A DNA stretch of 64,000 nucleotides. Origin: Prauserella shujinwangii. Lineage in GTDB: Bacteria; Actinomycetota; Actinomycetes; Mycobacteriales; Pseudonocardiaceae. The notes beneath the pieces are model-generated. The model did not search any database. It was not told where the DNA came from and saw only the letters and a list, made by a program, of their open reading frames with translations. The position numbers and the translations under genes are program-made. The stretch is from positions 124,001-188,000 of the forward strand of contig NZ_PVNH01000009.1 of the NCBI RefSeq assembly GCF_003001955.1. Reading direction: 5' to 3'. Below, piece by piece: positions 30,592 through 53,679 of this stretch (positions within the stretch are counted from its first letter, which is position 1; every line of letters starts with the position of its first letter).

Positions 30592-31539
30592 TCACGAGGG
30601 CTGGGACGTGAGGTAGCCGCCCATCGTGCGGAAGTAGTCGGTGGCGGCGTACTCGGTGTCGTCCTCGGTGCGTACCCGCTCGACCAGCAGCCCGTGGTTC
30701 TGCCCGTACCTGGCGTCCGCGCCGGCGACGATCACCACGCCGTCGCCCTCGCGGATGAAGATCCGCCCCGGCGTGCCGCCGTAGCGGCCCTCGGAGACCG
30801 AGGCGCGCACGATCCGCAGTTTCCGTCCCTTGTGGAAGGTGAAGGCGTTCGGGTACGGGTCGGACTGCGCCCGCACCAGCCGCTCGATGTCCTCGGCGGG
30901 CCACGTCCAGTCGATGCGGCTGTCCTCGATGGACCGCTTGTGGAAGAAGCTGGCCTTGGTGCGGTCCTGCGGCGTCCAGTCGGTGCGCCCGGACGCGATG
31001 AGCGGCAGCGCCTCGCTCACCACCGGCTCGATGAGGTCGACGGTCTTGTGGAACAGGTCCGTGGCCGTGTCCTTCGGGCCGACCTCGACCGCCTTCCGCA
31101 GCACGATCGGCCCGGCGTCGAGCTCGCCGTCCATCATGTGCGCGGTGACGCCGACCTCCTTCTCCCCGTTGATGAGGGCCCAGATCAGCGGGGAGAAGCC
31201 CGCGTAGGCGGGCAGCAGCGAGTCGTGCACGTTCAGCGTCCCGAACCTGGGCAGCCGGAAGATCTCCGGTGGGATCCAGGTGCGCCAGTTGTTCGCCACG
31301 ATGAGGTCGGGCCGGACCTCCCGCAGCCGCGCGGCCAGCTCCTCGTCCGGCCGGTTGCGCAGCACCACCTCGACGCCGTGCTCCTCGGCCAGGTCCGCCA
31401 CCGAGTCCGCCCAGATCCGCTCGTAGGCGTGGTCCGACTTGGGGTGCGTCACCACCAGTGCCACGTCGTGCTCCGAGTCCAGCAGCGCCCGCAGGGTCCG
31501 GTGCCCCCACGTCTGGTAGCCGAACATGACGACCCGCAT
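30592..31539 (-). CDS. siderophore N5-hydroxyornithine formyltransferase (CchA-like)
   Basis: A 315-residue protein of the methionyl-tRNA formyltransferase family. N-terminal domain motifs: MRVVMFGYQTWGHRTLRALL, VRPDLIVANNWRTWIP with Asn, LNVHDSLLPAYAGFSPLIWAL with the catalytic His and SLLP loop, and MDGELDAGPI with the catalytic Asp. The C-terminal OB-like domain is present. It would transfer a formyl group from 10-formyl-THF to N5-hydroxyornithine, as in coelichelin and rhodochelin pathways. It is divergent from the ornithine monooxygenase across three iron boxes, which fits siderophore synthesis rather than initiator-tRNA formylation. Confidence 0.9.
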   Translation of the reverse strand: MRVVMFGYQTWGHRTLRALLDSEHDVALVVTHPKSDHAYERIWADSVADLAEEHGVEVVLRNRPDEELAARLREVRPDLIVANNWRTWIPPEIFRLPRFGTLNVHDSLLPAYAGFSPLIWALINGEKEVGVTAHMMDGELDAGPIVLRKAVEVGPKDTATDLFHKTVDLIEPVVSEALPLIASGRTDWTPQDRTKASFFHKRSIEDSRIDWTWPAEDIERLVRAQSDPYPNAFTFHKGRKLRIVRASVSEGRYGGTPGRIFIREGDGVVIVAGADARYGQNHGLLVERVRTEDDTEYAATDYFRTMGGYLTSQPS

Positions 31540-31701: not shown

Positions 31702-33057
31702 ATGGGACGGGGTATGCCAGAGGCGCTGCGCAAGGACGAGACACCGGTCTACGACCTGGTCGGAGTGGGGTTCGGGCCGTCCAACCTCGCGCTCGCGATC
31801 GCGGTGACGGAGCACAACGCCGGTACCGGGGACGCCGTCACGGCGCACTTCCTGGAGCGGCAGGAGCGGTTCGGCTGGCACCGCGGGATGCTGATCGACG
31901 ACGCCACCATGCAGGTCTCCTTCCTCAAGGACCTGGTCACCCTGCGCAACCCGGCCAGCGACTTCAGCTTCCTCTCCTACCTGCACGACCAGGGCAGGCT
32001 GGTGGACTTCGTCAACCACAAGAACCTCTTCCCGCTGCGCGTCGAGTTCCACGACTACTTCGAGTGGGCGGCCGCGCGGGTGGACGACATGGTGTCGTAC
32101 TCGCAGGAGGTCGTGGCCGTCCGGCCGGTCTCCGCGGCGGGGGAGGTGGCGTACTTCGACGTCGCCACGGCGGCGGGCGAGGTCTACCGCGCCCGCAACC
32201 TGGTGCTGGCCACCGGCCTGCGGCCGTACCTGCCGGACGGGGTCACCGCGTCGGACCGGATCTGGCACAACCGCGACCTGCTGCACCGCATCGACGACGT
32301 CGACGAGCGCACCGCCCGCCGGTTCGTCGTGGTCGGCGCGGGCCAGAGCGCGGCAGAGGTCACCGCGTTCCTGCACGACCGGTTCCCGCGCGCCGAGGTG
32401 TGCTCGGTCTTCTCCCGGTTCGGCTACAGCCCTTCCGACGACAGTGCGTTCGCCAACCGCATCTTCGACCCCGACTCGGTCGACCGGTTCTACGGCGCGC
32501 CGGAGGAGACCAAGCGCCGGATCATGGACTACCACGCGAACACGAACTACTCCGTGGTCGACCTCGAGCTCATCGACGAGCTCTACCGCAGGCTCTATCG
32601 CGAGAAGGTGCTGGGCGTCCAGCGGCTGCGCATCCTCAACGTCTGCCGTCCGGCCGCGGTCGAGGACACCGGCGACTCCGTGCGCGTGACCGTCGAGTCG
32701 CTCGCCACGGGGGAACGCACCGACCTCGACGCCGACGTCGTCGTCTACGCGACCGGGTACCGGCCCGACGACACGCCCGCGCTGCTCGGCGAGCTCTCCC
32801 GGTACTGCCTGCGCGACGAGCACGGGCGGTTGCGCGTCGAGCGCGACTACCGCCTGCGCACCGTGCCGGAAGTGGCGGGCGGCCTCTACCTGCAGGGCGG
32901 CGGCACCGAGCACACGCACGGCATCACGTCGTCGCTGCTGTCCAACAACGCCGTGCGGTCCGGCGAGATCCTGCGCTCGGTCGCCGACCGCCGCCTCCGG
33001 GGGGAGAGCGCCAGTCCTGCCGCGGCCTACGCGGTCAGTGGAATCAGTTCCCGGTAA
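31702..33057 (+). CDS. L-ornithine N5-monooxygenase (siderophore hydroxylase)
   Basis: A 451-residue flavin N-hydroxylase of the SidA/PvdA/CchB family. FAD loop GVGFGPSNLALAIAV (about 21-35), substrate-side MQVSFLKDLVTLRNP, NADPH loop VVVGAGQSAAEV (about 212), NxxFxP-like SRFGYSPSDDSAFANRIFDP, and ATGYRPDD near the C-terminus. It makes N5-hydroxy-L-ornithine, the precursor of modules 1, 3 and 4. ATG 31702 and ATG 31714 are both possible; GGGACGGGG lies between them. The operon continues through the binding protein into the NRPS. Confidence 0.95.
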   Translation: MGRGMPEALRKDETPVYDLVGVGFGPSNLALAIAVTEHNAGTGDAVTAHFLERQERFGWHRGMLIDDATMQVSFLKDLVTLRNPASDFSFLSYLHDQGRLVDFVNHKNLFPLRVEFHDYFEWAAARVDDMVSYSQEVVAVRPVSAAGEVAYFDVATAAGEVYRARNLVLATGLRPYLPDGVTASDRIWHNRDLLHRIDDVDERTARRFVVVGAGQSAAEVTAFLHDRFPRAEVCSVFSRFGYSPSDDSAFANRIFDPDSVDRFYGAPEETKRRIMDYHANTNYSVVDLELIDELYRRLYREKVLGVQRLRILNVCRPAAVEDTGDSVRVTVESLATGERTDLDADVVVYATGYRPDDTPALLGELSRYCLRDEHGRLRVERDYRLRTVPEVAGGLYLQGGGTEHTHGITSSLLSNNAVRSGEILRSVADRRLRGESASPAAAYAVSGISSR

Positions 33058-33096: not shown

Positions 33097-34134
33097 ATGT
33101 TCCCCATCCTCCGAAAGCCGGTGCGGGCGTGGCTGCGCCTGCCCGCGGCGCTGCTGGGCCTCGTGCTGGCAGTGGTGCTCGCCGGCTGCGGCAGCTCCGA
33201 CGGTTCCGGTGACTCCTCCGGCGACCAGCCCTCCAACGCGGCGGCCGACGGCGCGTTCCCGGTGACCGTCGAGCACAAGTACGGCAGCACGGAGATCACC
33301 GAGGCCCCGGAGAAGGTGGTCACCCTCGGTCTGTCCGATCAGGACGCGGTACTCGCGCTCGGCATCAAGCCGGTCGGGGTCGTCGACTGGTTCAAGGAGC
33401 GCCCGTACGGCAAGTGGCCGTGGACCAAGGAGCGCTGGGGCGACACGCAGCCCGAGATCGTCGGCGAGCGCGACGAGTACAACATGGAGAAGGTCGCGAC
33501 GCTGCGGCCCGACCTCATCATCGCGCAGTACTCGGGCATGACCAAGGAGCAGTACGACACCCTCTCCGAGATCGCGCCGGTCGTCGCGCAGCCCAAGGAG
33601 TACCCCGACTACGCCGCGCCGTGGAAGGTCATGACGCAGCGGATCGGCAAGGCGCTCGGCCGGGAGGACGAGATCAACCAGCTCATCGAGCAGACCGACC
33701 AGCGCTTCGCCGAGGTCAGGCAGAACCACCCGGAGTGGGCCGAGCAGACCGTGGTGGTCGCCGACAGCTTCGAGCCCGGCGTCTACTCGGCGTTCACCAG
33801 CACCGACCCGAAGGCGGACTTCTTCAAGGAGATGGGCTTCCAGCTCAAGCCCGCGATCGACGAGGCCGCCGAGGAGGGCGCGAACGTCGCCCAGCTCAGC
33901 GCCGAGCAGCTCGGCATGCTGGAGGCCGACCGGCTCGTCTGGGTCACCTCCAGCGAGGAGGCCAACGAGCGGATCCGGTCGGAGCCGCTCTACCAGCGGC
34001 TGAAGGTCCACCAGGACGGCCGTGACCTGTTCGTGCCGTACGAGAACCCGGACATCGGTGCCGCGTTCTCCTTCAACACCGTGCTGTCCATCCCGTACGC
34101 CATCGACCAGATGGTGCCGCGGCTCGAGAAGTGA
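33097..34134 (+). CDS. ferric-siderophore substrate-binding lipoprotein
   Basis: A 345-residue FecB-type binding protein. Signal [16 protein letters not shown] with lipobox LAGC. The mature domain opens with [42 protein letters not shown], the classic Peripla_BP_2 start, and has the [28 protein letters not shown] block. Its C-terminal Glu-rich surface ([12 protein letters not shown]) probably contacts the permease. It lies inside the synthesis operon, between monooxygenase and NRPS, and is the natural partner of the importer at 53737-56671. The NRPS reading frame begins at its stop. Confidence 0.92.
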
Positions 34135-34151: not shown

Positions 34152-37100
34152 ATGTCGGATGCTCCGCTCACGAGCGCCCAGTCCGGAATCTGGCTGGCAC
34201 ACCGGATCGAACCGGACGACCCGGTCTACAACATCGCCTGGTACGCCGACCTCCGCGGCGACTTCGACCTCGATCGGCTCGCCACGGCGACCCGGCAGGC
34301 GATCGGCGAGGCCGAGTGTGTGCACGTGCGGTTCACCGGCACCGGGGAGCGGCCGAGGCAGGTGCCCGCACCCGCCGACCCCGCACCCGGACGGCTCGAC
34401 TTCACCGCCGAGCCGGATCCGGAGGCGGCCGCGGTGGAGTGGATGCGAGCCGACCGGCTCCGGCCGGCCGACCCGGAGCGGGGGCCGCTGTTCCGGCACG
34501 CCCTGCTCCGGGTCGCCGCCGACCGGATCTGGTGGTACCAGCGGTATCACCACCTCGTGATGGACGCCTACGGCTGCCTGCTGGTCACGCAGCGCGCGGG
34601 GAGCCTGTACGCGGGCGAGGACGGCGTGCCGTTCGGCCCGCTGCGCCGGCTGGTCGGCGCGGACACCGCCTACCGCGCCTCGCGGCAGTACACAGTGGAC
34701 CGGGAGTACTGGCACTCGCGGTTCGCCGACCGCCCGGAGCCCGCCCGGCTCGTGCCGTACGGCGGCGGTGAGGTACGCCGCCGCACGACCGAGCTGCCCG
34801 CCGCGACCACCGCGGCGGTGCGGGAGCTGGCCGCCCGCCAGGGCTCCCGGCTGTCCCGGGTCGTCATCGCGGCGGTCGCGGCCTACACCCAGCGCGCGAC
34901 CGGCGCCAGGGACGTCGTGCTGAACCTCCCGGTGACCGCCCGCGTCGAGGACAGCACCCGCGACGTGCCGGGCATGGTCTCGAACGTGCTGCCGCTGCGC
35001 GTCCCCGTCCATCCGGCGACGACTCCGGCCGCGCTGATCGGCGCGATCGACGTGGCGGTCGCGGAGCTGCTGGCGCACAGCCGGTACCGCGGCGAGGACC
35101 TGGCCAGGGAGCTGGGTCTGCCCGGGGGCATCGCCGAACTCGGTGGCCCCGGGGTCAACGTCATCGGGTTCGGCCGTGACCTGCGGATCGGCGGGCGGCG
35201 TGTGGAGTTCCGGGACCTCGCGCTCGGCCCCGTCTCCGACCTCAACATCACCTGCTACGACCGGGGCCCCGAGGACGGCCTGCTCGTCGAGTTCGACGCC
35301 GCGTGCGCCGACGACCGGCTGGCCGGGCACGAACGCCGCTTCCTCGCGGTGCTCGACGGCCTGCTCGCTCACCCGGATCGCCCGATCGGCGCGCTCGACC
35401 TCGTTGGCGAGGGCGAGCGCACCCGGCTGCTCACCGAGTTCGGCCGCGACGAACGCGCCGTCGACGAGCTGACCTGGCCTGCCGCCTTCGAACGGCAGGT
35501 CCGGAGGGCGCCGGACGCCGTGGCCGTGGTGTGCGAGAGCGAGCGGCTGACCTACGGCGAGCTGAACGCGGCCGCGAACCGGCTGGCGCGCGCGTTGCGG
35601 GCCCGCGGAGTGGACGCCGAGGACATCGTGGCCGTGGCCCTGCCCCGGTCGGCGGATCTCGTCGTCGCCCTGCTCGGCGTGCTCAAGGCGGGGGCAGCCT
35701 ACCTCCCGCTCGACCCCGACCAGCCGCGCGAACGCCTCGAGGCGATCACCGCCGACGCCGACGCCCGGCTGACCCTGTCCACACTGGACCACGACGAGCT
35801 GAGCGCGTACGACGACTCGGATCTCGGCCTGGAGATCGACCTGCGCCAGGCCGCCTACGTCATCTACACGTCCGGCTCCACGGGCAGGCCGAAGGGCGTC
35901 GTCGTCCCGCACGAGGGCATCGGCAGCCTGGTCGCGACCGCCGTCGACCGGCTCGGCGTGGACGCCACCAGCCGGGTGGCCCAGTTCGCGTCCGTGAGTT
36001 TCGACGTGACGGTGTGGGACCTGACGATGTCGCTGTGCGTCGGCGGCCGGGTGATCGTCGTACCCGCCGAGCGGCGCGTACCGGGCCCCGAGCTGACCGG
36101 GTATCTGACCGAGCACGGCGCCACGCACATGATCCTGCCGCCGTCGCTGGTCGCCGCGCTGCCTCCCGGCTGCGCGCTGCCCGAGGGCGGGGTGCTCGTG
36201 GTCGGCACCGAGACCGTGCCCCCGGAGCTGGTGGCCCGCTGGGCGGACCGGATGCGTGTCGTGGCGGCGTACGGGCTCACCGAGGCCACCGTGAACTCGA
36301 CGCTGTGGTCCGCGCGGCCCGGCTGGACCGGCCCGGTGCCGATCGGCAGGCCCGACCCCAACACCCGCTGTTACGTGCTGGACTCCGCGCTGCGCCCCGT
36401 CGGCATCGGCGAGGTGGGCGAGCTCTACGTCGGCGGTCGCGGGCTCGCCCGCGGCTACCTCGGCAGGCCGGGGCTGACCGCGGAACGGTTCGTCGCCGAC
36501 CCGTTCGGGGCGCCGGGCGCGCTGATGTACCGGACCGGCGACCGGGTGCGCTGGTCGCGAGCCGGGGACCTCGAGTTCCTCGGCCGGGTCGACGACCAGG
36601 TCAAGATCCGCGGGCACCGGGTGGAGCCCGGCGAGGTCGAGGCCGCCCTGCTGACGCACCCGGACGTGGCACAGGCCGCCGTGGTCGCGCGCGAGGACCA
36701 CCGCCGCGTACGCCGCCTCGTCGCCTACACCGTCGGCGACGCGAAGCCCGGCGCGTTGCGGACCTTCCTCGCCGGCGCGCTGCCGGACTACCTGGTGCCC
36801 TCGGTGTTCGTGTCCCTCTCCGGCACGATGCCGGTGACCCCGAACGGCAAGATCGACAAGCGGGCGCTGCCGGACCCCGACTGGACCGCGCTGGCCGGGG
36901 ACGCCGAACCGGCGACACCGCGCGAGCGAACGCTGGCGGCCCTGGTCGCCCAGGTGCTCGACCTGCCGAGTGTGGGCGTGCACGACAGCTTCTTCGAGCT
37001 GGGCGGCGACAGCATCGTGGCGATCCGGCTGGTGAACCTGGCCCGCGCCGCGGGACTCGCGCTCACGCCCCGCGACGTGTTCCGTCTCCGTACCGTGGCC

Positions 37101-40100
37101 GCGCTCGCCGAGGTGGCCGGGGTGCCGGAGACCGCGGCCGAGGTGAGCCTCGACGACGACGCGCTGCCCGTGTCACCGCTGCAGGAGGGCTTCTTCTTCC
37201 ACTCGGCGTTCGACGACACGGACTCCTACGTCGTGCAGCAGGTCGTCGAGCTGACCGGCGACGTCGACCCGGTGGCGCTGCGCCGCACGCTGCAGGGTGT
37301 GCTGGACCGGCACCCGCTGCTGCGTGCCGGGTTCCGGCAGCTGCCCGACGGCCGGGTCGTGCAGCGGCTCGCCGACCGAGTGGAGCTGCCGTGGCGGGAG
37401 GCCGACGACGTGGACACCGCGCTCGCGCGGGACCGCGCCGAGGGCTTCGACCTGGCCACCCCGCCGCTGCTGCGCGCCACCCTGGCCGGCTCGCGGCTGG
37501 TGCTGACCCTGCACCACATCATCGCCGACGGCTGGTCGGTGTCGATCATGCTGCGGGACCTGGTGGCCGGGTACACGGGCGAGGAGCCGCCGCCCGCGCC
37601 GGATCCGCGTGGCTACCTGGCGTGGCTCGCCTCCCGTGACCGGGAGTCCGCACGTGCCGCCTGGCGCTCGGCACTGTCCGATGTGGAACCCACCAGGTTG
37701 GTGGAGGAGCCTCCCGGCGCACCGGCGCAGCACGACGTCCGGCTGTCCGAGGAGCTGACGGCTGGCCTCGCCGCGCTCGCCCGCGACCGGGGGCTCACCC
37801 TCGGCACGGTCCTGCACGGCGCGTGGGGACTGCTGCTCGGCGGCCTGACCGGGCGCACCGACGTCGTGTTCGGCAGCACCGTGTCCGGCCGGGGCGCCGC
37901 CGTCCCCGGCATCGAGTCGGCCGCCGGGCTGTTCATCAACACCGTGCCCGTCCGGATGCGCGTGCGCCCGGCCGACACGCTCGCCGGGGCACTGCTGCGC
38001 ATGCAGGACGACCAGGCCACCCTGCTGGACCACCAGCACCTCGGGCTCGCCGAGATCCAGCGCGGCACCGGCGAGCTGTTCGACACGCTCGTGGTGGTGG
38101 AGAACCAGCCGATGCCCGAGCGATCGGGCCCGATCGGCGCGATCGAGGTCCACGACGCCGTGCACTACCCGGTCGCGCTCGTCGCCCACCCCGGACCACG
38201 GCTGCACCTGCGGTTCAAGCACCGCATCGGCGCTGACCGCGCCCGGGACCTCGCGGACCGCTACGTGCGGCTGCTCCGCACGCTCGCCGGGGAGCCCGAC
38301 CTGCCGGTCGCCGCGCTGGACCTGCTCACCGGCCCCGAACACGACCGGCTCGCGCGGCTGAACGCCACCGGAACGGACGTGCCGGACGCCACGCTGGTGT
38401 CCGCGTTCGCCGAGCAGGTCGCCCGCACGCCGGACGCGACGGCGGTGGTGTACGAGCACACGCGACTGTCCTATGCGGAGCTGGACCGGCGCGCCAGCGC
38501 GCTGGCCGCGGTGCTGCGCGCGCGGGGCGCGGGCCCGGAGGCCGTCGTCGCCGTGGCCGTGCCGCGCAGTGCCGAGCTGATGGTCGCGCTGCTCGGCGTG
38601 CTGCGCTCGGGCGCCGCGTACCTGCCGGTGGACCTCGACTACCCGGCCGACCGGGTAGCGTTCATGCTCGCCGACTCCGGCGCCCGGCTCGTCGTGACGC
38701 TGCCCGGCATCGAGCTGCCCGGCGACCTCGACCGGGTGCACGTCGGGGAGACCGCAGGGGACAGCGCGGACAGCGCGGGCAGCGGGGACGCGCCGCCCGC
38801 GCCCGGCCATCCGGCCTACCTGATCTACACGTCCGGCTCCACCGGGCGGCCCAAGGGCGTGGTGGTGACCCACCGCGCCATCGTCAACCGGCTCGCCTGG
38901 ATGCAGCACGCCTACGGGCTCGCGCCGGACGACCGCGTGCTGCAGAAGACCCCGTCCAGCTTCGACGTCTCGGTGTGGGAGTTCTTCTGGCCGCTGCTGC
39001 GGGGCGCCGCCGTGGTGCTCGCCCACCCGGACGGCCACCGCGACCCCGCCTACCTGGCGGAGCTCGTACGGTCCGAGGGCATCACGACCATGCACTTCGT
39101 GCCGTCGATGCTGGCCGCGTTCACCGGCGCCGTGCGGCCGGGCGCGTGGTCGGCGAGCCTGCGCCGGGTGTTCTCCAGCGGGGAGGCGCTGCCCGGCGAG
39201 GTCGCCGCCCGCTGGCGGGAGCTGACCGGGGTGCCGCTGCACAACCTCTACGGCCCCACCGAGGCGGCCGTCGACGTGACGTGGTTCCCGTACACCGGCG
39301 GGGACGAGGTGTCCGTGCCGATCGGGTGGCCGGTGTGGAACACGCGCCTGTACGTGCTCGACGAGCTGCTGCGGCCGGTGCCCGACGGGGTGCCGGGCGA
39401 GCTGTACCTCGCGGGCGTCCAGCTGGCGCGCGGCTACCACGACCGGGCGGGTCTCACCGCGGAGCGGTTCGTGGCGTGCCCGTTCGGCAGGCCCGGTGAG
39501 ACCATGTACCGCACCGGGGATCTGGTGCGGCGGCGCCCGGACGGGGCACTGGAGTACCTGGGCCGCACCGACCGCCAGGTGAAGCTGCGCGGCAACCGTG
39601 TCGAGCTGGGCGAGATCGAGGCCGCGCTGCTCAGGCTGCCCGGGGTCGGGCGGGCGGCGGTGACCGTCCGCGACGGCGCCCTCGTCGGCTACGTCGTGCC
39701 CTCCGGCGCCGAACCGCACCCCGGCGAGCTGCGCGCGGCCCTCGCCGACGCGCTGCCCGCCGGCATGGTGCCGGGCGCGTACGTGGTGCTCGACGACCTT
39801 CCGCTGACGCCGAGCGGGAAGCTCGACCAGCGGGCGCTGCCCGCGCCCGAGGTCGTCACCGGGCCCGCGCGGGAACCCGCGAACGAGCGGGAACGGCTGC
39901 TGTGCGACCTGGTCGCCTCCGTGCTCGAGCTGCCCTCGGTCGGCGTCGACGACGACTTCTTCGTGCTCGGCGGAGACAGCATCACCTCGATCGCCGTGTC
40001 CACCCTGGCCAGGGACCGCGGTCTCGACGTCAGCCCGAGGGACGTGTTCGAGCACCGCACGCCCGCCGCGCTCGCGGCGGCGGTGGGCACCAGCGCGGAG

Positions 40101-43100
40101 CCCGTGCCCGCCGAGCTGGCGCGGGTGGAGCTGACCGGCGACGAGCGGCGGCGCGTGGCCGCGCTGGCGGGCGGTGCGGTCGAGGACGTCTGGCCGCTCT
40201 CGCCCCTGCAGGAGGGCCTGTACTTCCACGCCACCTACGACGAGGCCGCGCTCGACGTCTATCTGTCCCAGGAGACGCTGGACTTCGACCACGCGCTCGA
40301 CGCCGACCGGCTGCGCGCGGCGTGCGCGGCACTGCTGGCGCGCAACCCGAGCCTGCGGGCCGGGTTCGCCAGCGACGGCCTTTCCCGCCCCGTGCAGTTC
40401 GTGGCCACCGAACCCGAGGTGCCGCTCACCGAGGTCGACCTGTCCGGCCTGTCCTGCGACGAGCAGGACGAGCGGGTGGAGCGGCTGCTGGCCGAGGACC
40501 GCAGACGCCGGTTCGACCTGCACCGGCCCCCGCTGTGCCGGCTACTGCTCATCCGGCTTTCCGACGGCCGCGACCGGCTCGTGGTGACCCACCACCTCGT
40601 GCTGTGGGACGGCTGGTCGGCGTGGCTGTTCCTGGAGCAGCTGTTCGAGCTCTACGAGCGCGGCGGCGACCCGGCCGGGCTGCCGGAGCCCGGCACCTAC
40701 CGCGACTACCTGGCGTGGCTGGCCGCGCAGGACGGTGCCGCGGCGCTGGCCGCGTGGCGGGACGCGCTCGCGGGGCTGGCCGAGCCGACGCTGGTCGGAC
40801 CCACCGACCAGGGACGGGAGCCGATGATCCCCGCCGACTTCGACACGGTGCTGCCGAAGGCGGACAGCGACCGGCTGCGTGCCTTCGCCAGGGAGCACGG
40901 GCTCACCCTGAACACGGTGCTGCACGCGGCCTGGGGCTCGATCCTCGCGGCCATGGTCGGCAGGGACGACGTCGTGTTCGGTGCCGCCGTGGCGGGCAGG
41001 CCGGTGGAGGTGCCCAACGTCGGCAGCGTGATCGGCATGTTCCTCAACACCGTGCCCACGCGGGTGTCCTTCGACCCGGCCGAGCCGGTCGCGGGCCTGC
41101 TGCGGCGCCTGCAGGCCGAGCGGGCCGCGCTGATGCCGTACGAGTACGTCGGGCTCGGCGACATCCAGCGTGAGGCGGGCCACCGGAAGCTGTTCGACAC
41201 GCTGTTCGTGCTCCGCACCGCCGACGGCGACGAGCGCGCCGAGCGGCTGCGCGCGCGCCACGGCATCACCAGTGTGTCCAATGTGGACGGAACGCACTTC
41301 CCGCTGACGCTGATCGTCACGCCGGAGGACGAGCTGCGGGTGACGCTGGCCGCGCGGCCCGACCTGTTCGACGAGCGGGCGGCGCGGACCGTCCTGGAGC
41401 GGTTCATCGCGGTGCTGGGCAGGCTCGCGGCCGACCCGGACCAGCCGGTCGCGCGGGTCGGCCTGCTGACCGAGGGCGAACGGCGTGAGCTCGAGGCGGA
41501 GTGGTCCGCGGTGGAGCGGCCGATCGGGGACGAGACCGTGGCCGACCTGCTGGCGGCGCAGGCCGCCCGCACACCGGAGGCGACGGCGCTCGTGTTCGGC
41601 GGCACCACGCTGACGTACGCGGAGCTGGACGCGCGGATCAACCGGCTGGCCCGGTTCCTCCTCGCGCACGGCGCGGGCCCGGAGCGGGTGGTGGCGCTGG
41701 CGCTGCCCCGGTCGATCGACATGGTCGTGGCGTTGTTCGCCGTGTTGCGCACGGGGGCCGCCTACCTGCCGCTCGACCTGGACCACCCCGCCGAGCGGCT
41801 GCGCGCCATGCTCGACGACACGTCCCCCCTCTGCGTCCTGGCTGTGACCGGCAGTGAAGGTGGCCTTCACTGGCCGACGTACCTGCTGGACGGGGAGGGG
41901 GTGCGGGACGAGGTCGAGGGGTACTCCGGGGAGGCGCTGGACGACGCCGAGCGTCCCGCGTTCGCCCGCGGCGTGCCGGACCGGCTGGAGTATCCCGCCT
42001 ACGTCATCTACACCTCCGGCTCGACCGGGCGGCCGAAGGGCGTGGTCACGCCGTACCGCGGCCTGACCAACATGCAGCTCAACCACCGCGGGGAGATCTT
42101 CGGCCCCGCCATCGACGCCGCGGGCGGGCGCAGGCTGCGCATCGCGCACACCGTGTCGTTCGCGTTCGACATGTCCTGGGAGGAGCTGCTGTGGCTCGTC
42201 GAGGGCCACGAGGTGCACGTGTGCGACGAGCAGCTGCGCCGCGACGCCGAGGCGCTCGTGGCGTACTGCGCCGAGCACCGCATCGACGTGGTCAACGTGA
42301 CGCCGACCTACGCGCAGTTGCTGATCGAGCAGGGCCTGCTTCGCGATCACGTGCCACCGCTGGTGCTGCTCGGCGGCGAGGCGGTGTCCGACGCGGTGTG
42401 GACGACGCTCGCCGACACCGAGGGCACCTACGGCTACAACCTGTACGGTCCCACCGAGTACACGATCAACACGCTCGGCGCCTCCACCATGGACAGTGCG
42501 ACGCCCGCGGTGGGCAGGCCGATCCTCAACACGCGTGCCTACGTGCTCGACCGCTACCTCCGCCCGGTGCCGCCGGGCACGCCGGGGGAGCTCTACATCG
42601 CGGGCATCGGGCTCGCCCGCGGCTACCACGACCGGCGAGGGCTCACGGCGGAACGGTTCGTGGCCGACCCGTTCCGGCCAGGCCGGATGTACCGCACCGG
42701 CGACCTGGTGCGGCGCAGGCCCGACGGGATCATCGACTTCCTCGGCCGCACCGACGACCAGGTGAAGATCCGCGGCTACCGCGTCGAGCTCGGCGAGGTG
42801 GAGGCCGCGCTCGCCGAGCACCCCGACGTCCGCCACGCCGCCGTGGTCGCCGACTCCACCACGGCCGTGCGGCGGCTCGTCGGTTACGTCGTGGCCGAGC
42901 GCGAGTTCGACTGGCGCGCGCACCTGAAGGAACGCCTGCCGGGCTACATGGTTCCCTCGGCCGTGGTCGCCGTGCCGGAGCTGCCGCTCACCGTGAACGG
43001 CAAACTCGACGTCAAGGCGCTGCCCGCCCCGGACATCGGGGCGGTGGGGGAGAGCAGGCCACCGCGCACCCGCGCCGAAGAGGTGCTGTGCGAGCTGTTC

Positions 43101-46100
43101 GCCGAGCTGCTCGGCGTGCGGGGCGTCGGCATCGACGACGACTTCTTCGACCTCGGCGGGCATTCGCTGCTCGCCACCCGGCTCGTCAGCCGCGCCCGCG
43201 CCGCGCTGAACGCCGAACTGGCGATCCGGGATCTGTTCGAGGCCCCGACCGTGGCGGAGCTGGTCACCCGCATCGGCCGCCCCGCCCGGCCCGCGCTGGT
43301 GCCCGCCGAGCGGCCGGCCGAGCTGCCGCTCTCCCCGGCCCAGCGGCGGCTGTGGCTGATCCAGCAGCTGGAGAGTTCCGCGGCGGCGTACAACTTCCCG
43401 CTGGTGGTGCGGCTGCGCGGGCGGCTGGACCTCGCCGCGTGGCGGGCCGCGCTCGCGGACGTGGTGGACCGGCACGAGGCGCTGCGCACGGTGTTCGCCG
43501 AACGCGAGGGTGTTCCGTACCAGCGGGTCCTGACCGGAGTCCGGCCGGAGGTGGAGGTCGTGGACGCCGCCGGGGCGCAGGTGCCCGACCTGGTGCGGGA
43601 GGCCGTGTCGCGCCCGTTCGACCTGGCGACCGAGCTGCCGCTGCGCTGCACGGTGCTCCGGCTCGCCGAGGACGAGCACGTGGTCGTGCTGATGCTGCAC
43701 CACATCACCACCGACGAGTGGTCCGACCGGCCGTTCCTGCGCGATCTGTCCACCGCGTACGCGGCCAGGGTCGACGGCGCGGCCCCGGACTGGCCGCCGC
43801 TTCCGGTGCAGTACGCGGACTACGCGCTGTGGCAGGAACGGCTGCTCGACGCGGTCGGCGCCGAGCAGCTCGCGTACTGGGAGTCCACTCTGGACGGGAT
43901 TCCGGAGGAGATCGATCTGCCCGCGGACCGCACCAGGCCGGGCAGGCCGACGTTCCGGGGCGGCTCGGTGGACATCGAGCTGGCGCCGGAGACCGTCGAA
44001 CGGCTGCGCGCGCTCGCGCAGGACACCGGCGCGAGCATGTTCATGGTGCTGCACGCGGCGGTGGCGGCACTGCTGCACCGCATGGGCGCGGGGGAGGACA
44101 TCCCGCTCGGCGCACCCATCGCGGGCCGCACGGACTCCGCCCTCGACGACCTGGTCGGCTTCTTCGTCAACACGCTCGTCCTGCGCACGGACGTCTCCGG
44201 CGCGCCGGGTTTCGCCGAGCTGGTACGGCGGGTCCGCGCGGCCGACCTGGCGGCGTTCTCGCACGCCGACGTGCCGTTCGAGTCGGTGGTCGAGCGGCTC
44301 AACCCGGCGCGCTCGCTCGCGCGGAACCCGCTGTTCCAGGTGATGATCGGCTACCACGTGCGGTCGGGGGAGCCGCTCGAGCTGCCCGGCCTGACCGCCG
44401 AGTTCGTGCCAGGACAGGCCGAGACGGCGAAGTTCGACCTGGTGTTCAGCTTCACCGACCAGCTCGGCACCGGCCGCCTCGGCTGCCGCGTCGAGTACAG
44501 CACGGAGCTGTTCGACGCGGAGACCGCGAGCAGGCTCGGCGAACGGCTCGCGCTGCTCGCCGACACCGTGGCCGCGGCTCCGGACCGGTCGCTGCGCGAG
44601 GTCGACCTGCTGATCGACGACGAGCGGCGGCTCGTGCTGGCGGGCTTCAACGCCACCGAGCGCGTGGTACCGGAGAAGTCGCTGCCGGAACTGTTCGCGC
44701 GGCAGGTCGCCGAGCGGCCCGGCGCGGTGGCCGTGGTCGACCGCTCGGACTCGGTGACCTACGCGGAGCTGAACGCACGGGCCAACCACATCGCCCGGCT
44801 GCTCGCCGGGCACGGGGTGGGCACGGAGGACGTCGTTGGCGTCGCCGTCCCGCGCTCGGTGGACACGATCGCGACCGTGCTGGCCACGCAGAAGCTCGGC
44901 GCCGCCTTCCTGCCGCTGGACCTCACGTACCCGGCCGACCGGCTCGCCTACATGGTCCGGGACTCCGGCGCGAAGGTCGTCGTCACGACCCCGGCCGCGG
45001 GCGGGGCGGTGCCGGACGTCGCGCCGGTGCTGACCCTCCTCGGCGACGATCGGGACGAGTCCGGCGTGGACGCGCCGATGCCCGCGCTGGACCAGGCGGC
45101 GTACGTGATCTACACGTCCGGCTCCACCGGCAGACCCAAGGGTGTCGTCGTGCCGCACGACGGCATCGCGAGCCTCGTCGCCACCGCCGTCGACCGGATG
45201 GGGCTGGAGCCGGACTCGCACGTGCTGCAGTTCGCGTCCGTCGGGTTCGACGTGTTCGTCTTCGAGCTGTCGATGGCGCTGTGCCACGGCGGCAGGCTCG
45301 TGCTGATCCCGGAGGAGGCCAGGGTGGCGGGCCCGGCGCTCACCGACTTCCTGCACGAGCAGCGGGTGACCCATCTGATCCTGCCGCCGTCGCTGGTGTC
45401 CGCGCTGCCGGACGACTGCGCGCTGCCGGACGGCTCGACGATCCTCGTCGGCACCGAGACCGTGCCGCCGGAGCTGATCGAGCGCTGGGCGGGCAGGCTC
45501 AACCTGATCGCGGCCTACGGGCTCACCGAGGCCACGGTGAACTCGACGCTGTGGCCCGCGAAGCAGGGCTGGCAGGGCCCGGTCCCGATCGGACGGCCGG
45601 ACCCGAACACGGTCTGCTACGTGCTGGACTCCGCGTTGCGGCCGGTGCCGCCCGGTGTGGCCGGGGAGCTGTACGTCGCGGGCCGCGGGCTCGCGCGCGG
45701 TTACCTCGGCAGACCGGGGCTCACGGCGGAGCGGTTCGTGGCCAATCCGTTCGGACCGCCGGGTTCCCGGCTCTACCGCACCGGGGACCGGGCGCGGTGG
45801 CGCAGCGACGGGAACATCGACTTCCTCGGCCGCACCGACGACCAGGTGAAGATCCGTGGGTTCCGCATCGAGCTGGGGGAGGTCGAGGCCGCCCTCACCG
45901 CGCTGCCGGGGGTGCGGCAGGCGGCGGTGGTCCCCGACCGCAGGGGAGACATCGTGCGGCTGGTGGGCTACGTGGTCACGGACGAGCCGGTCGAGTGGCG
46001 GGAGCCGCTGCGGGCCGCGTTGCCGGACTACATGGTCCCCGCGCTGGTGATCCGGCTCGACGGGCCACTGCCGCTCACCCCCAACGGCAAGCTCGACCGG

Positions 46101-47618
46101 CGCGCGCTGCCCGCGCCCGACTGGACCGAGCTGACCGGGCAGGCGCGGCCGGTCACCGCCGAGGAGCGCACGCTGGCGCGGCTGTTCGGCGAGATCCTGG
46201 AACTCACCGATGTCGGCGTGCACGACCACTTCTTCGAGCTGGGCGGGCACTCGATGTCGGCCATGCGCCTGCTCGGCCGCATCCGCACGGAACTGGGCGT
46301 CGACCTGACGGTGCGGGACGTGTTCGACGCGCCGACCGTCGCCGGGATCGCCGCCAAGCTCGGCGGGGCGTCGGCGCACCGGCCCGCGCTGGAGCCGCGG
46401 GAGCGGCCCGCGCGGGTGCCGCTGGCCCCGGTACAGCGGTGGGCGTGGCGACGGTACCGCGAGCGGCCGGGGTTCGACCACGCGCTCGCGCTGCGCTCGG
46501 AGACCGAGTTCGACGTCGCCGCGCTCGCGGCCGCGCTGCGGGATGTCGCCGGGCGGCACGAGCCGTTGCGCAGCCGGTTCGCCGAGCGCGACGGTGCCGT
46601 GTGGCAGGAGCTCGGCGCACCGCCGGAGCTGACCGTGGAGTCCGATGTGGACATCGAGATCCGCCTGGCGGAGCTGGCCCGCGACGCGCCCGACCTGACG
46701 GTCGAGCCGCCGCTGCGGGCGAGCCTTCTGGTGGGCGAGTCGGAGCAGGTGCTGCTGCTGGCGATGCACTACCTGGGTGTGGACGAATGGTCGGTGGTGC
46801 CGCTGCTGCGGGATCTCACCGCCGCCTACACGGCCCGGCGTGCGGGCACCGCGCCGGAGTGGGCACCGCTGCCGGTCGGCTACGCGGACTACACCCGGTG
46901 GTCGGTGGAGCTGACGCGCGAGGTCGCCGACCGGCAGTTGGCGTACTGGCTGCGGACGCTGCGCGGCGCGCCGGACATCGCCCTCCCCGGCGCGCGGCCG
47001 GGCGCCGGGGGCGATGCGGACCTGGTCGGCTTCGTGCTCGACGAGGATCTGCACGCCCGGATCGACCGGCTGGGCAGGCGGTACGGCGCGAGCATGTTCA
47101 TGGTGCTGCAGGCCGCGTTCGCGCGGGTGCTCGCCGACCGGGGCGCCGGGACCGACCTGCCGATCGGCACCGCCGTCGCCGGCCGCACCGAGGAGGAGCT
47201 GGCCGGGCTGGTCGGCTGCTTCGTCAACACGGTGGTGCTGCGCACGGACGTCTCCGGCGATCCTTCCTTCCCCGAGTTGTTGCGGCGGGTACGGGCGACC
47301 GGGCTCGCCGCGCTGGACCGGCAGGACGTGCCCTTCGCCGACGTCGTGGCGGAGACGGGCGTGCGGCCGAGGGTGGCGGTACTGCACCACGAGCAGGCCG
47401 GGCTGGCCGACCTGGAGGGCGGGCACGGCTCACTCGAGGCCGTGCCGGCCGCGGCGGCGGACGCCGACCTGACGTTGAGCTTCTACGAACCGCGCGGGAG
47501 CGGGGCCGTGCACTGCTACCTCGGCTACGCGACCGGGGTACTCGACCGGTCCACTGTGGAGGATCTGGCGCGGCGGCTGCACGCACTGCTGGACGAGGAG
47601 ACGAGGAGGAACCCGTGA
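34152..47618 (+). CDS. tetramodular siderophore NRPS, C-A-T-C-A-T-C-A-T-C-A-T-C
   Basis: A 4,488-residue synthetase. C1: [10 protein letters not shown]133. A1 with T1 Ser954 (GGDSI). C2: HHIIADG, H1121. A2 with T2 Ser1943 (GGDSI). C3: HHLVLWDG, H2147. A3 with T3 Ser3005 (GGHSL). C4: HHITTDEWS, near 3183. A4 with T4 Ser4034 (GGHSM). C5: [11 protein letters not shown]4206. Eight-position codes read by alignment to GrsA, plus the A10 Lys: A1 DVWIVGAVNK, A2 DVWHFSLVDK (Ser), A3 DMENLGLINK (N5-hydroxyornithine), A4 DVFILGAVNK. A1 and A4 probably take N5-formyl-N5-hydroxyornithine. C1 opens like EntF ([10 protein letters not shown]) and may acylate residue 1; no TE, so C5 likely releases a diketopiperazine, as described for erythrochelin. 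ATG 34152 follows GGAAGG; GTG 34131 overlapping the previous stop is an alternative. Confidence 0.95.
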
Positions 47619-50146: not shown

Positions 50147-50232
50147 GTGAGAAACGCCCACCTGCCGCCCGGCCACCCCCTGGCGGAGGCGCTCCGCGCC
50201 GCCGTGTTCTCACCACGTTCCTCACTCACGAG
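50140..50232. repeat. palindromic element A6, expanded to 93 bp
   Basis: Outer arms CTCGTGAGTGAGAAACG and CGTTCCTCACTCACGAG flank a GC-rich centre not present in other copies. The inner GTTCTCAC next to the right arm is the reverse complement of the loop GTGAGAAC of A1, so this copy faces the other way. Both convergent genes stop in it: TGA 50144-50146 and TGA 50228-50226. Confidence 0.8.
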
Positions 50233-51977
50233 CGGGTGCCGGACCAGGCGCGCCAGAGGTCGGCGTAGCGGCCGCCCGCCGCGACCAGCTGGTCGTGGGT
50301 ACCGGTCTCCACCACGCGGCCCGCGTCGAGCACGACGATCCGGTCCGCACCGGCCGCCTGGGTCAGCCGGTGCGCGACGACCAGCCCGGTGCGCCCCTCC
50401 AGTGCCCTGCCCGCCGCCGTCTCCAGTGCCCGCGCGCCCGCGCTGCCCGCCTCGGCGGTCGCCTCGTCCAGGATGGCGATCGGCGGGTCGGCCAGCACCA
50501 GCCGGGCCAGCGCGAGCTGCTGCGCCTGGGTCACCGTCAGCCGGTGCGCGCCCTCGCCGACCACAGTGGACAAACCCGAGGGCAGCGCTTCCACCCACGC
50601 CGTCGCCCCCACCCGGGCCAGCGCCGCGCGCAGGTCCTCGTCGGTCGCCCCGGGCCGGGCCAGCCGCAGGTCGTCCGCCAGCGGCCCGGCGAAGACGTGC
50701 ACCTCCTGGCTGATCAGGGCGACCGTGCGCCGCGTCGCGGCGGGACCGAGCTCGTCCAGCGACACCCCGCCCAGCGAGATCGAGCCCCGCGTGGGGCGGT
50801 GGATGCCCGCGATCAGCTTGGCCAGCGTGGTCTTGCCCGCACCGCTCGCGCCCACCAGCGCCACCCGCTCGCCGTCACCGAGATCGAGGTCCACATCGGA
50901 CAGCACGTCGTGGCCGGTGACGTACGCGTGCCCGACGGCGGCCGCCTTGACCGACGCGCCGGCGGGCGCGGCCCCGTCCCCGGTCTCCCGCTCGCCCTCC
51001 AGGTCGGACACCCCGACGATCCGCGCCAGGCTCGCCGTGGCGGCCTGCGCGTCGTCCACCAGCGCGAGCGCGGCGTTGACCGGGTTGAACAGGCTGTGGA
51101 AGTACAGGGCCGCCGCCGTGGCCGTGCCGATCGTGGCGGCGCCGGAGCCGACCAGCCAGAACCCGGCCGCCAGCACGGCGGAGAGCCCCACGTACTCGGC
51201 GAGGTTGAGCCGGGAGAAGAACCGCGTCATCAGCCGGATGCCGCGCAGCGCCAGATTGACGGCCTCCTGCGAGCGCCCCCGCACCCGGCCGACATGGTCG
51301 GCGGACAGCCGGAACGCGCGCACGGTGCGGGCGCCCCCGACCGTGTCGAGCAACTGGTGCTGCAGGGCACCGCCCGCCACCCGCTGCGCGGCGTACAGCG
51401 GCACCGCGCGCCGCACGTACCAGCGGACCGTCCACAGCTGGATCGGTGTCGCCAGCAGTGCCGCCAGCAGGAACCGCCAGTCGAGGATCGCCAGCGCACC
51501 CAGGGTGAGCACGATCGTCAGCACCGACCGCCCGAGCTCGGGCAGCGCCTCCCGGACCGACTTGGCGATCACCGCCACGTCGGTCGTCACCCGCGCCGTC
51601 AGGTCGCCCGACCCGGCCTTCTCGACCTGTTCCAGCGGCAGGCCGAGCGCCCGCTCGACGAAGCGCTCGCGCGCGTCGGCGAGCATCTCCTCGCCCAGCC
51701 GCGACACCAGCGCGAGCCCCCACGCGTTGGCCGCCCCGCGCGCGAGCGCGACCGCCGCGAGCCCGGCGACCGGCAGCGTGAAGTCCGTGCTGCCGCGCGC
51801 CACCAGGTCGACGATGTGCCCCAGCAACGGCGCCGTCAGCAGGCCGATCGCGGTCGCGGCGACCAGCACGGCCAGCCCGCCGAGCGCCAGCCCCCTGCGT
51901 GGCCGCAGCAGCTGCCCGACCGCGGCCCTGGTGCGCCTGGCGGTCGCCGTGGGCAGCAGTTCCCGTTCCGTGCTCAC
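50226..51977 (-). CDS. heterodimeric ABC exporter, subunit with canonical Walker motifs
   Basis: A 583-residue half-transporter: about six TM helices (GLALGGLAVLVAATAIGLLT onward, with QVEKAGSGDLTARVTTDV in the first coupling region), then an ATPase domain with Walker A VGASGAGKTTL, Q-loop ISQEVHVF, Walker B IAILDEATAE and H-loop VVAHRL. The signature LSGGQ is replaced by LTVTQ (HRLTVTQAQQLALARL). It starts in a 4-nt overlap with the partner gene and lies next to the importer behind the same iron boxes, so siderophore export is the likely role. Confidence 0.9.
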   Translation of the reverse strand: MSTERELLPTATARRTRAAVGQLLRPRRGLALGGLAVLVAATAIGLLTAPLLGHIVDLVARGSTDFTLPVAGLAAVALARGAANAWGLALVSRLGEEMLADARERFVERALGLPLEQVEKAGSGDLTARVTTDVAVIAKSVREALPELGRSVLTIVLTLGALAILDWRFLLAALLATPIQLWTVRWYVRRAVPLYAAQRVAGGALQHQLLDTVGGARTVRAFRLSADHVGRVRGRSQEAVNLALRGIRLMTRFFSRLNLAEYVGLSAVLAAGFWLVGSGAATIGTATAAALYFHSLFNPVNAALALVDDAQAATASLARIVGVSDLEGERETGDGAAPAGASVKAAAVGHAYVTGHDVLSDVDLDLGDGERVALVGASGAGKTTLAKLIAGIHRPTRGSISLGGVSLDELGPAATRRTVALISQEVHVFAGPLADDLRLARPGATDEDLRAALARVGATAWVEALPSGLSTVVGEGAHRLTVTQAQQLALARLVLADPPIAILDEATAEAGSAGARALETAAGRALEGRTGLVVAHRLTQAAGADRIVVLDAGRVVETGTHDQLVAAGGRYADLWRAWSGTRS

Positions 51978-53653
51978 GACAGCACCACCGCCCGGTACGC
52001 GGCGTCGGAGTCGACGAGCCCGGCGTGCGTGCCCTCGGCCCGGACGGTGCCCTCGTCGAGCACCACGACCCGGTCGGCGGCGGCGAGCAATGCCGGGCTG
52101 GTGGTGACGGCCATCGTGGTGCGGCCGCGCCGGACCTCCCGCAGCGCACCGGCGATCCGGGCCTCGGTCACCGCGTCGACGGCGGTGGTCGGGTCGTGTA
52201 CCGCCAGTACGGCGGGGTCGGCGGCGAGCGCACGGGCCAGCGCGACCCGCTGCCGTTGCCCGCCGGACAGCGACCGGCCACGCTCGGCGACCATCGTGTC
52301 GACCCCTTCCGGCAGCGTCCCGGCGACCTCGTCGGCCGCGGCCGCGGCGAGCGCGGGTTCCACAGTGGACCCGCGTGTTCCGGCGAGTACGTTGTCCAGC
52401 AGGGTGCCCTCGAACAGGTCGGCGTCGTGGGCCGCGACGAGCACGGCGGACCGCAGCTCATCGAGGTCCAGCTCCGGCAGCGGCACGCCGTCCAGCTCCA
52501 CCGAGCCCGCTCCGGGGTCGGCCTCCCTGGCGAGGCATTCCAGCAGGTGCACGGCGTCGGCCGGGTCGGGGCAGACCACCCCGAGCAGCTCGCCGGGCCG
52601 GACCTCGAGGTTCACGCCGCGCAGGGTGCCGTGGGTGACGCCGCTGAACCGGACGTGCCCGGCGGTCCCGCCGGACAGCACGCCGGTTCCGGGCACCACG
52701 GCGGGCGGCGCGGCCAGCACCGACGCGATCCGTTCCGCGGACGCCCTGCCCTGCGCCAGCTGGCCGTTCACCCACGCGAAGATCTGGAACGGCGTCAGCA
52801 GGAACTGGGCCAGCCCGACGGCCGCGACGAGCTGGCCCACCGTGATGTCGCCGCGCGCGGCGAGGTGCGCGCCGACGAGCGCGACCACCGCGATGAACAG
52901 TCCGGTGAGGGCGAGGATCACGCCGTCGTGCCCGGCGTGCGCGCGGGCCGCGCGCAGGGTGGCCGCCAGCGAGTCGCGGCTCGTCCTGCGGTACCGCGCG
53001 ACCGCGGCGGCCTCCGCGCCGATGCCCTTCAGCACCCGCAACCCGGCCACGAGGTCCGCGGCGACGCCGGACGCGTGCGCCGCGCGCTCCTGCTCGTCGC
53101 CGCTGCGCCGCTCCAGCGGCCTGCCGACGAGGTGGGTCAGCCACAGCAGCGGCGGCGTGCCGAGCAGCACGAGCAGGCCGAGCGGCACCGAGATGCGCAG
53201 CAGCAGTACCGCGCTCACCAGCAGCCCGGCGAGCCCGGCCACGGCGAAGGGCAGCACCCCGTTCACCGCACCGACGCGTTTGGCGTCGCCGGTCGCGATG
53301 TTGACGAGCGCGCCGGGCAGCCTGCCCGCCTCCGCGCCACCGCGCGCGTCCAGCACGCGGCCGGTGACCTCGAGCCGTAGCCGGTGCGCCGCCTGTTCCG
53401 AGGCTCGCTCGGCCGCGCGGGAGGCGAAGCGGTAGCTGACCGACAGCCCGGCGAACACCGCGGCGAGCACGGCGAGCCAGCGCAGCAGCGCCGCGGCGTC
53501 GCCGGTGGTCACGGCCTCGTCGATGATCACACCGATGAGGACGGGGACCAGCGCCTCACCGCCCTGGTGGGCCGCGGCGAGGGCGGATCCGCCCACGACG
53601 TACCGCCGCTGGTCCGAGACGGCCTTCCGGAGCACGCTCCGGCCGGTTGGCAT
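51974..53653 (-). CDS. heterodimeric ABC exporter, subunit with degenerate ATP site
   Basis: A 559-residue half-transporter: TM region beginning VVGGSALAAAHQGGEALVPV and an ATPase domain with an intact signature LSGGQRQRVALARAL. Its own ATP site is broken: Walker A reads GVVCPDPADAVHLL (no GK[S/T]), Walker B LAVHDPTTAVD (Asp for the catalytic Glu), and the H-loop AVTTSPALL lacks the His. It thus complements the partner, which has Walker A/B but no LSGGQ. ATG 53653 is 9 nt from GGAGG; GTG 53656 is also possible. Divergent from the importer across two iron boxes. Confidence 0.9.
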   Translation of the reverse strand: MPTGRSVLRKAVSDQRRYVVGGSALAAAHQGGEALVPVLIGVIIDEAVTTGDAAALLRWLAVLAAVFAGLSVSYRFASRAAERASEQAAHRLRLEVTGRVLDARGGAEAGRLPGALVNIATGDAKRVGAVNGVLPFAVAGLAGLLVSAVLLLRISVPLGLLVLLGTPPLLWLTHLVGRPLERRSGDEQERAAHASGVAADLVAGLRVLKGIGAEAAAVARYRRTSRDSLAATLRAARAHAGHDGVILALTGLFIAVVALVGAHLAARGDITVGQLVAAVGLAQFLLTPFQIFAWVNGQLAQGRASAERIASVLAAPPAVVPGTGVLSGGTAGHVRFSGVTHGTLRGVNLEVRPGELLGVVCPDPADAVHLLECLAREADPGAGSVELDGVPLPELDLDELRSAVLVAAHDADLFEGTLLDNVLAGTRGSTVEPALAAAAADEVAGTLPEGVDTMVAERGRSLSGGQRQRVALARALAADPAVLAVHDPTTAVDAVTEARIAGALREVRRGRTTMAVTTSPALLAAADRVVVLDEGTVRAEGTHAGLVDSDAAYRAVVLS

Positions 53654-53679
53654 CACCGTTCACCTCCGCGCTTGTGAGC

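Follow-up and report, generated by a model that had tools for sequence, protein, structure and literature searches.

Condensation domains of apparent D-type ancestry without epimerization domains in a putative hydroxamate-siderophore synthetase of Prauserella shujinwangii

A nonribosomal peptide synthetase (NRPS) encoded in a 64,000-nucleotide stretch of the Prauserella shujinwangii genome (hereafter the window; assembly GCF_003001955.1, contig NZ_PVNH01000009.1, positions 124,001–188,000, forward strand; genome completeness 99.86%, 21 contigs) raises the question of how the configuration of its first two residues is set. Predictions of stereochemistry in nonribosomal peptides routinely rely on epimerization (E) domains and on the subtypes of condensation (C) domains, two signals that conflict in this enzyme. 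As described in the initial annotation, the carrier (T) domains T1 and T2 have the GGDSI motif and lead straight into the PLQEG-type domains C2 and C3; the SPLQEG motifs lie at residues 1015 and 2024 of the NRPS, and the T1–C2 and T2–C3 gaps are only 13 and 30 residues long. The GGHS motifs of T3 and T4 and the SPAQRRLWL start of C4 were also confirmed from the motif positions. The reading that we favor, and hold to be moderately probable on the basis of sequence comparisons, is that the enzyme has lost both E domains (E1 and E2), with C2 and C3 re-tuned to an L donor and residues 1 and 2 being L in a foroxymithine-like product.

Absence of epimerization activity and ancestry of C2 and C3

Neither an E domain nor a dual condensation/epimerization (C/E) domain was detected in the window NRPS. 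The dual C/E motif (H....GD; HH[I/L]xxxxGD) is missing from the entire 4495-residue protein, in agreement with the initial annotation, and a dual C/E domain is thereby ruled out. A trans-acting E domain is ruled out as well, since all five PF00668 matches in the genome fall inside the window NRPS and the genome contains no separate E-domain gene. An E domain directly upstream, the functional mark of a D-type (DCL) domain, is thus lacking for both C2 and C3. An E-like tail in front of C3 (16.8 bits with an E profile) was discarded as evidence, because the match ends in the E–C linker and the start of the C domain, which the profile contained.

Relatives of the synthetase were collected from two sources. 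The T1–C3 stretch was used to search 150 related genomes, and 29 genomes were fetched; alignment of C3 against a named genome collection gave at least 80 loci, partly picked by the C3 motif itself, and 47 of the 80 named loci were selected by architecture, of which L126 was then dropped as incomplete. After G026, G034, G063 and G084 had been set aside as other NRPSs, the usable set comprised 26 + 46 = 72 synthetases, including that of the window. T1 and T2 have GGDS and T3 has GGHS in 72/72, so the pattern is not a matter of chance. The value of GGDSI as an E-preceding motif is less clear-cut: in a biased sample of NRPSs from outside the family, GGDS was found in 60/61 T domains before E, but it is also frequent in T domains before C (27 of 74, the others being 45 with GGHS and 2 with other motifs). 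GGDS straight before a C domain without E is common beyond the family, for example in L139, L143, L144, L148, L155 and L160.

In a tree of 152 C domains (the split C2 of G042 was left out), all 24 domains that follow an E domain, dead ones counted, and the E-less C2 and C3 domains of the family form one 66-row branch with a Shimodaira–Hasegawa-like approximate likelihood ratio test (SH-aLRT) value of 100, and C4 with most C5 domains form a separate 65-row branch (SH-aLRT 99). Also included in the former branch are some C domains at the first position, along with three that come from additional modules or from other NRPSs and follow T without E (G101 C5, G016/G054 C6 and G084 C3). Clustering of C2 and C3 with L-L domains, which would have spoken against the annotated subtype, did not occur. 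This does not prove that they take D donors, because the D-type label is inherited and both domains have changed.

The residue at the donor gate gives a similar picture. According to one study, 73% of L-L type (LCL) domains have Arg there and DCL domains have Gly in 80% and Ala in 4% of cases, and the gating Arg mutant of fuscachelin C3 is R2577G (PMC8097023). The fuscachelin chain comprising a peptidyl carrier protein (PCP) and a C domain reads QRRLW and its mutant counterpart QRGLW, so the two differ exactly at the gate residue; in the window NRPS the corresponding residues are the Gly within the SPLQEG motifs of C2 and C3 and, in C4, the second Arg within SPAQRRLW. Within the family the gate is Gly in C2 and C3 of 72/72 synthetases, and in C4 it is Arg in 67/72 and Ser in 5/72. 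Among solved structures, window C3 scored 235.6 bits with PvdL, 217.8 with McyB and 208.8 with SrfA-C, versus 62.7 bits with fuscachelin (7kvw), with which window C4 scored 376.3 bits. When the C3 model (mean predicted local distance difference test score, pLDDT, 90.8) was searched with Foldseek, the nine best hits were structures of SrfA-C, tyrocidine modules 1–2 (chain B) and PvdL E2-C3. Judged by sequence, C2 and C3 are D-type by descent, altered in detail, and C4 is L-L type. The proposed D-accepting character of C2 and C3 is borne out as ancestry by the tree, the Gly gate and the solved relatives, and is qualified by the missing upstream E domain and by the residue changes described below.

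The D-type lineage of C2 and C3 would also suit direct loading of D-amino acids, supplied by a racemase, by the adenylation (A) domains A1 and A2. Such loading is known in principle, and two papers describe it for D-Ala from a racemase in cyclosporin (PMC8949500) and fusaricidin (PMC3897469). No amino-acid racemase, however, was found among the 26 neighboring reading frames scanned (part of the frames in the window), and A2 shares its Ser-type code with the E-bearing synthetases G013, G052 and L124. We regard direct loading as very improbable, the least credible of the explanations considered here.

E domains among relatives and the residues that track them

E1 is present in 14/72 synthetases and absent from 58/72. 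For E2, 22 synthetases retain the catalytic His, 7 have a full-length copy that lacks this His (dead), 11 have a 91–121-residue spacer in place of the domain and 32 have none. A close relative without E domains is Prauserella flavalba (L089). Each of the four possible E1/E2 combinations is represented, with L101 (Sinosporangium siamense) as the sole locus that has E1 and no E2, and T1 and T2 have GGDS in every one of them. All 7 dead E2 copies lack the catalytic His and 6/7 also lack the Glu, and in E domains from outside the family 55/56 of those scored keep both. The dead motifs are SDLAVDPWSW in G032, HPLVIDAATW in G056, and HP with the glutamate deleted in five six-module synthetases of an Amycolatopsis group. 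Separately, E1 of L122 (Actinophytocola algeriensis) keeps HHLVVDEVSW with Ala in place of the catalytic Glu and is probably dead as well. Most E2 copies share one ancestry: 27/29, including all 7 dead ones, fall into a 33-row branch with six copies from other loci (SH-aLRT 99), and the remaining two, from G036 and G069, cluster with the E1 of the same synthetase. Similarly, 12/14 E1 copies lie in a 17-row branch (SH-aLRT 94). The spacers at the place of E2, found in G011 (L049) and ten Streptomyces (L090–L098 and L152), are often Ala-rich and resemble each other. They were not retained as E fossils, since the match to the E core was weak (best 3.4 bits, E-value 0.0015, one sequence), and are counted as spacers only.

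In a tree of C2, A2, C3, A3 and C4, the window belongs to a 26-row clade (SH-aLRT 95) whose members all lack E1 and an active E2 (2 dead, 11 spacers, 13 none), and from an ancestor with both E domains, seven losses of E1 and six losses of E2 activity suffice. Loss appears likelier than gain because dead copies exist and because the E2 copies are largely one lineage. The comparison with homologous synthetases therefore supports the earlier suggestion that the E domains were lost.

The presence of an E domain is mirrored in the C domain that follows. In C3, position 149 is Ala in 50/50 synthetases without active E2 and in 1/22 with it, and position 150 is Trp in 48/50 and 0/22, respectively. These are the two residues after DGWS; E2-bearing synthetases mostly have Gln or Glu followed by Gly or Ser. 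In C2, position 341 is Ala in 58/58 synthetases without E1 and in 2/14 with E1, and position 336 is Val in 52/58 and 0/14. The two exceptions at position 341 are L122, whose E1 lacks the Glu, and L135, whose E1 looks intact. All 7 synthetases with a dead E2 already have Ala-Trp in C3. The marks are local to the module: nine synthetases without E1 and with E2 have Ala341 in C2 and Gln followed by Gly or Ser in C3, and L101 shows the reverse pairing. As estimated by p values that are uncorrected for site choice, the marks having been selected by the same scan, the association is densest between C3 and E2 (17 sites <1e-8, best 2.8e-17), and no site in A3 or C4 reaches <1e-6 with either E state (best for E2, 1.8e-4 and 5.7e-6). 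Among hold-out C domains from outside the 72 (with L202, an undetermined locus, and the duplicate L200 excluded), Ala occurs at the equivalent of position 149 in 5/8 E-free domains and 0/8 that follow E. A switch for donor stereochemistry in C domains may reside in these E-linked residues. The natural series of intact, dead, spacer-replaced and absent E domains in all four E1/E2 combinations allows the conflict between the two stereochemical signals to be studied residue by residue, and switch residues, if real, would be useful for engineering.

The same changes could be read differently if the E-free C2 and C3 were themselves unrecognized condensation/epimerization domains, with the marks as part of this activity, the E domains made redundant and residues 1 and 2 D. 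The changes that E-free C3 domains share directly after the active-site motif, and the pairing of dead E2 with an already changed C3, would fit such a takeover. However, the dual C/E motif is missing, the Leu in place of the catalytic second His of C3 makes base chemistry less likely, and we know of no actinobacterial precedent, although no search was aimed at one. Epimerization by an unrecognized route, one of the options raised initially, is unsupported, and we consider it quite improbable.

The reading that we favor, with loss of both E domains and re-tuning of C2 and C3, has several observations weighing against it, which concern the direction of change, the number of independent events and the specificity of the marks. 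Under equal-cost parsimony an E-less root is preferred by one step (6 versus 7 for E1 and 5 versus 6 for E2), and loss is more parsimonious only where gain is costlier. An E-less ancestor, with E inserted in other lineages, would nevertheless have to account for dead E2 copies at the same place in three groups, for E2 copies that are mostly of one lineage, and for GGDS in T1 and T2 and the Gly gate of C2 and C3 in 72/72, the last two being features that such an ancestor would not require; the argument from GGDS is softened because, in other NRPSs, E-less modules with this motif ahead of C are not rare. We judge an E-less ancestor to be quite improbable. The tree without C2 and C3 splits the 26-row clade of the window, so blocks have been exchanged and the event counts are soft. 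The tailoring genes do not help, as G010 and G031 have both a formyltransferase and an intact E2 and tailoring is no predictor of E loss. A correlation between formyltransferase and E loss was ruled out, since E-bearing and E-less synthetases occur both with and without the enzyme. Independent contrasts, computed on the tree without C2 and C3 (on supported branches for C3), are few: C3 has only 5, of which an average of 4.9 are concordant for Ala149 (p no lower than 0.0625) and 4.5 for Trp150, and C2 has 7, with Ala341 concordant in 6 and without difference in 1 (p 0.031) and Val336 concordant in only 4. The associations also cross modules (C2 with E2, best 1.6e-9; C3 with E1, best 1.3e-7), and A2 is associated with E2 at 15 sites <1e-8. 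The three E-free hold-out domains without Ala belong to distant NRPSs (L147, and L165 twice). Finally, the marks could serve another function.

The A2 association arises at least partly because the donor substrate covaries with E2: the A2 code is of Ser type in 46/50 synthetases without active E2 and in 4/22 with it, the others being DPxxFGV-like or different. Discordant rows follow E rather than Ser, as all four E2-active Ser rows lack Ala149 and all four E2-inactive non-Ser rows have it, some of these eight rows being near relatives of each other. As a separate observation, the E2-bearing Streptomyces L117, L119, L121, L123, L125 and L134 nest inside the spacer-bearing Streptomyces in the tree of A2, A3 and C4 and leave this position once C2 and C3 are included. 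This suggests that a block reaching from C2 to C3 was exchanged, in which E2 and C3 moved together.

These points bear most on a reading in which C2 and C3 kept their tolerance of D donors and are simply lax, so that L donors pass without re-tuning and the marks are lineage markers in exchanged blocks. The small number of contrasts, the A2 sites that also track E2, the weaker cross-associations and the suggested block exchange in Streptomyces all agree with it. It does not readily explain why the associations are densest in C3 for E2 and absent from the adjoining A3 and C4, or why the marks, E-free and E-bearing alike, stay within their module in both directions. Among the rivals lax C domains rank first, although they are unlikely; hidden epimerization, an E-less ancestor and direct loading are weaker. 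We therefore return to re-tuned C2 and C3 domains as the preferred reading, with L residues at positions 1 and 2 as the best inference, because the changes in C2 and C3 are almost confined to synthetases with an absent or dead E domain; the inference is one from sequence.

The C3 active-site motif

The second His of the HHxxxD motif is catalytic, and the fuscachelin C3 variant H2697Q reportedly retains about 1% activity (PMC8097023). In window C3 this position is occupied by Leu (H-L-V-L-W-D-G, within positions 40590–40613), in an ungapped alignment with PvdL. Across the family, C3 has Leu, Met, Val or Phe there in 72/72 synthetases, and C2 and C4 have His in 72/72. The loss follows the downstream A domain. 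Of 470 C domains gathered, 6 had no readable motif, and of the 464 that remained, 65 were not followed by a readable A code; among the 399 left, 84/90 before a DMEN[LM]GLIN A domain and 1/309 before other A domains lack the His, the single case having an incomplete A code. The 65 excluded domains include 46 without His, of which 45 have Tyr, nearly all of them terminal. L170–L174 likewise lack the second His in C3. Six exceptions retain His before DMENLGLIN, in L137, L139, L143, L144, L147 and L165. As the named loci had been fetched partly by the C3 motif, a second search used A3 as the query against 296 genomes from the phylum. It returned 30 loci, in which 5/5 further DMENLGLIN domains have a His-less C domain upstream (4 after removal of G248, a duplicate of L127) and 18/18 other readable C domains keep the His.

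In erythrochelin and foroxymithine, the bond made at C3 links Ser with the hydroxylamine on the hydroxyornithine side chain. The low pKa of the hydroxylamine could make a general base unnecessary, and C4, which keeps its His, should have an α-amine as its acceptor. We tentatively propose, with a confidence that falls somewhat short of probable, that C3 may form a catalytic class of its own that acylates the N5-hydroxyornithine hydroxylamine and has given up the second His (mostly H[L/M/V/F]xxWDGW) because this acceptor needs no general base, and that, inside the family, the two residues following DGWS report donor epimerization and are perhaps switchable. No report of a His-less hydroxamate-forming C domain was found in the open-access literature, as judged from titles and the beginnings of abstracts. 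The missing His of C3 is also relevant to the question of what function this residue serves.

The locus, its predicted product and known systems

The synthetase consists of four C-A-T modules and a terminal C domain, the layout of the erythrochelin and foroxymithine type, and adjoins an ornithine N-monooxygenase gene and siderophore transport genes as expected for that type (Table 1).

Table 1. Domains of the window NRPS and neighboring genes (window coordinates)
Feature	Position	Strand	Basis
Tetramodular NRPS, C1-A1-T1-C2-A2-T2-C3-A3-T3-C4-A4-T4-C5, 4495 amino acids	34131–47618	+	Open reading frame and domain reading
C1, N-terminal condensation domain	34155–35420	+	
A1, code DVWIVGAVN	35427–36905	+	
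T1, GGDSI (residue 958)	36906–37115	+	
C2, SPLQEGFFF (Gly gate), HHIIADG intact; E1-free residues V (38160–38162) and A (38175–38177)	37152–38342	+	
A2, code DVWHFSLVD	38352–39869	+	
T2, GGDSI (residue 1947)	39873–40085	+	
T2–C3 linker, about 30 residues; E2 site in relatives	40086–40178	+	
C3, SPLQEGLYF (Gly gate); Leu at catalytic second His (40596–40598); E2-free A-W after DGWS (40620–40625)	40179–41486	+	
A3, code DMENLGLIN	41490–43052	+	
T3, GGHS (residue 3009)	43062–43274	+	
C4, SPAQRRLWL (Arg gate), HHITTDE; L-L type by sequence	43308–44630	+	
A4, code DVFILGAVN	44634–46145	+	
T4, GGHS (residue 4038)	46146–46358	+	
C5, terminal condensation domain, HYLGVDEW (Tyr at second His)	46401–47594	+	
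Formyltransferase adjoining the NRPS	30592–31539	-	PF00551, PF02911
L-ornithine/lysine N-monooxygenase	31702–33057	+	PF13434
Periplasmic-binding-protein-like gene, probably siderophore binding	33097–34134	+	PF01497
Two ABC transporter genes, fused membrane and ATPase domains (50226–51977, 51974–53656)	50226–53656	-	
Two FecCD permeases (53737–54792, 54828–55841)	53737–55841	+	

We take the A1 code to specify an ornithine derivative, A2 Ser, A3 N5-hydroxyornithine and A4 an ornithine derivative; with these code meanings, the order of the A codes is also that of the erythrochelin and foroxymithine type. The ancestor would have belonged to a D,D,L,L hydroxamate-siderophore line of the erythrochelin kind with E domains in modules 1 and 2, both of which would subsequently have been lost. 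T1, T2, C2 and C3 would retain the ancestral stamp in the form of GGDSI and the Gly gate, and C2 and C3 would have been re-tuned to the unepimerized donor, from which the L configuration of residues 1 and 2 would follow. The predicted order of the product is acyl-(formyl)hydroxyornithine, Ser, hydroxyornithine and (formyl)hydroxyornithine, and C5 probably closes a diketopiperazine to give a foroxymithine-like compound.

Two further features of the family were recorded. At the place of the second His, Tyr is found in 44/67 fifth C domains and His in 23, the latter including non-terminal domains of six-module synthetases; a link between the Tyr of C5 and ring closure is a guess. A domains with an interruption of approximately 340–400 residues, perhaps a methyltransferase, are A1 of G019, G042, G056, G074 and G101, and A3 of G016, G054 and G101.

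The window synthetase resembles that of erythrochelin in its four modules and terminal C domain. Erythrochelin has D,D,L,L stereochemistry. G013, presumably Saccharopolyspora erythraea with its erythrochelin synthetase EtcD/ErcD, has the layout C-A-T-E-C-A-T-E-C-A-T-C-A-T-C. In contrast, the window NRPS lacks both E domains and has the E-free residues in C2 and C3, and its neighboring formyltransferase has no counterpart in the 40 kb fetched around the G013 synthetase. A review also assigns epimerization domains to the erythrochelin synthetase (PMC6151668). The likeness to foroxymithine lies in the predicted residue order, the formyltransferase and the terminal C domain. In ten Streptomyces of our set, with S. 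zaomyceticus and S. exfoliatus among them, E1 is missing and a spacer stands at the place of E2. One study reports foroxymithine from Streptomyces venezuelae and assigns it tentatively to an NRPS cluster (PMC9769785). The stereochemistry of foroxymithine, scabichelin or any E-free member was not found in the accessible portions of the literature searched.

Dual C/E domains of the arthrofactin type are similar in that they would place D-residues in a product without E domains, but their motif is absent from the window NRPS; they have been described for lipopeptides of Pseudomonas, Burkholderia and Xanthomonas (PMC8949500). The closest sequence and fold neighbors of window C3 are the DCL domains of SrfA-C, TycB C1 and PvdL C3, with which it has the Gly gate in common. 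SrfA-C and TycB C1 accept D donors, and PvdL C3 follows E2 according to the title of its structure entry. Window C3 differs from these DCL domains in having no upstream E domain, no catalytic second His, and the residues that mark the E-free members of its family.

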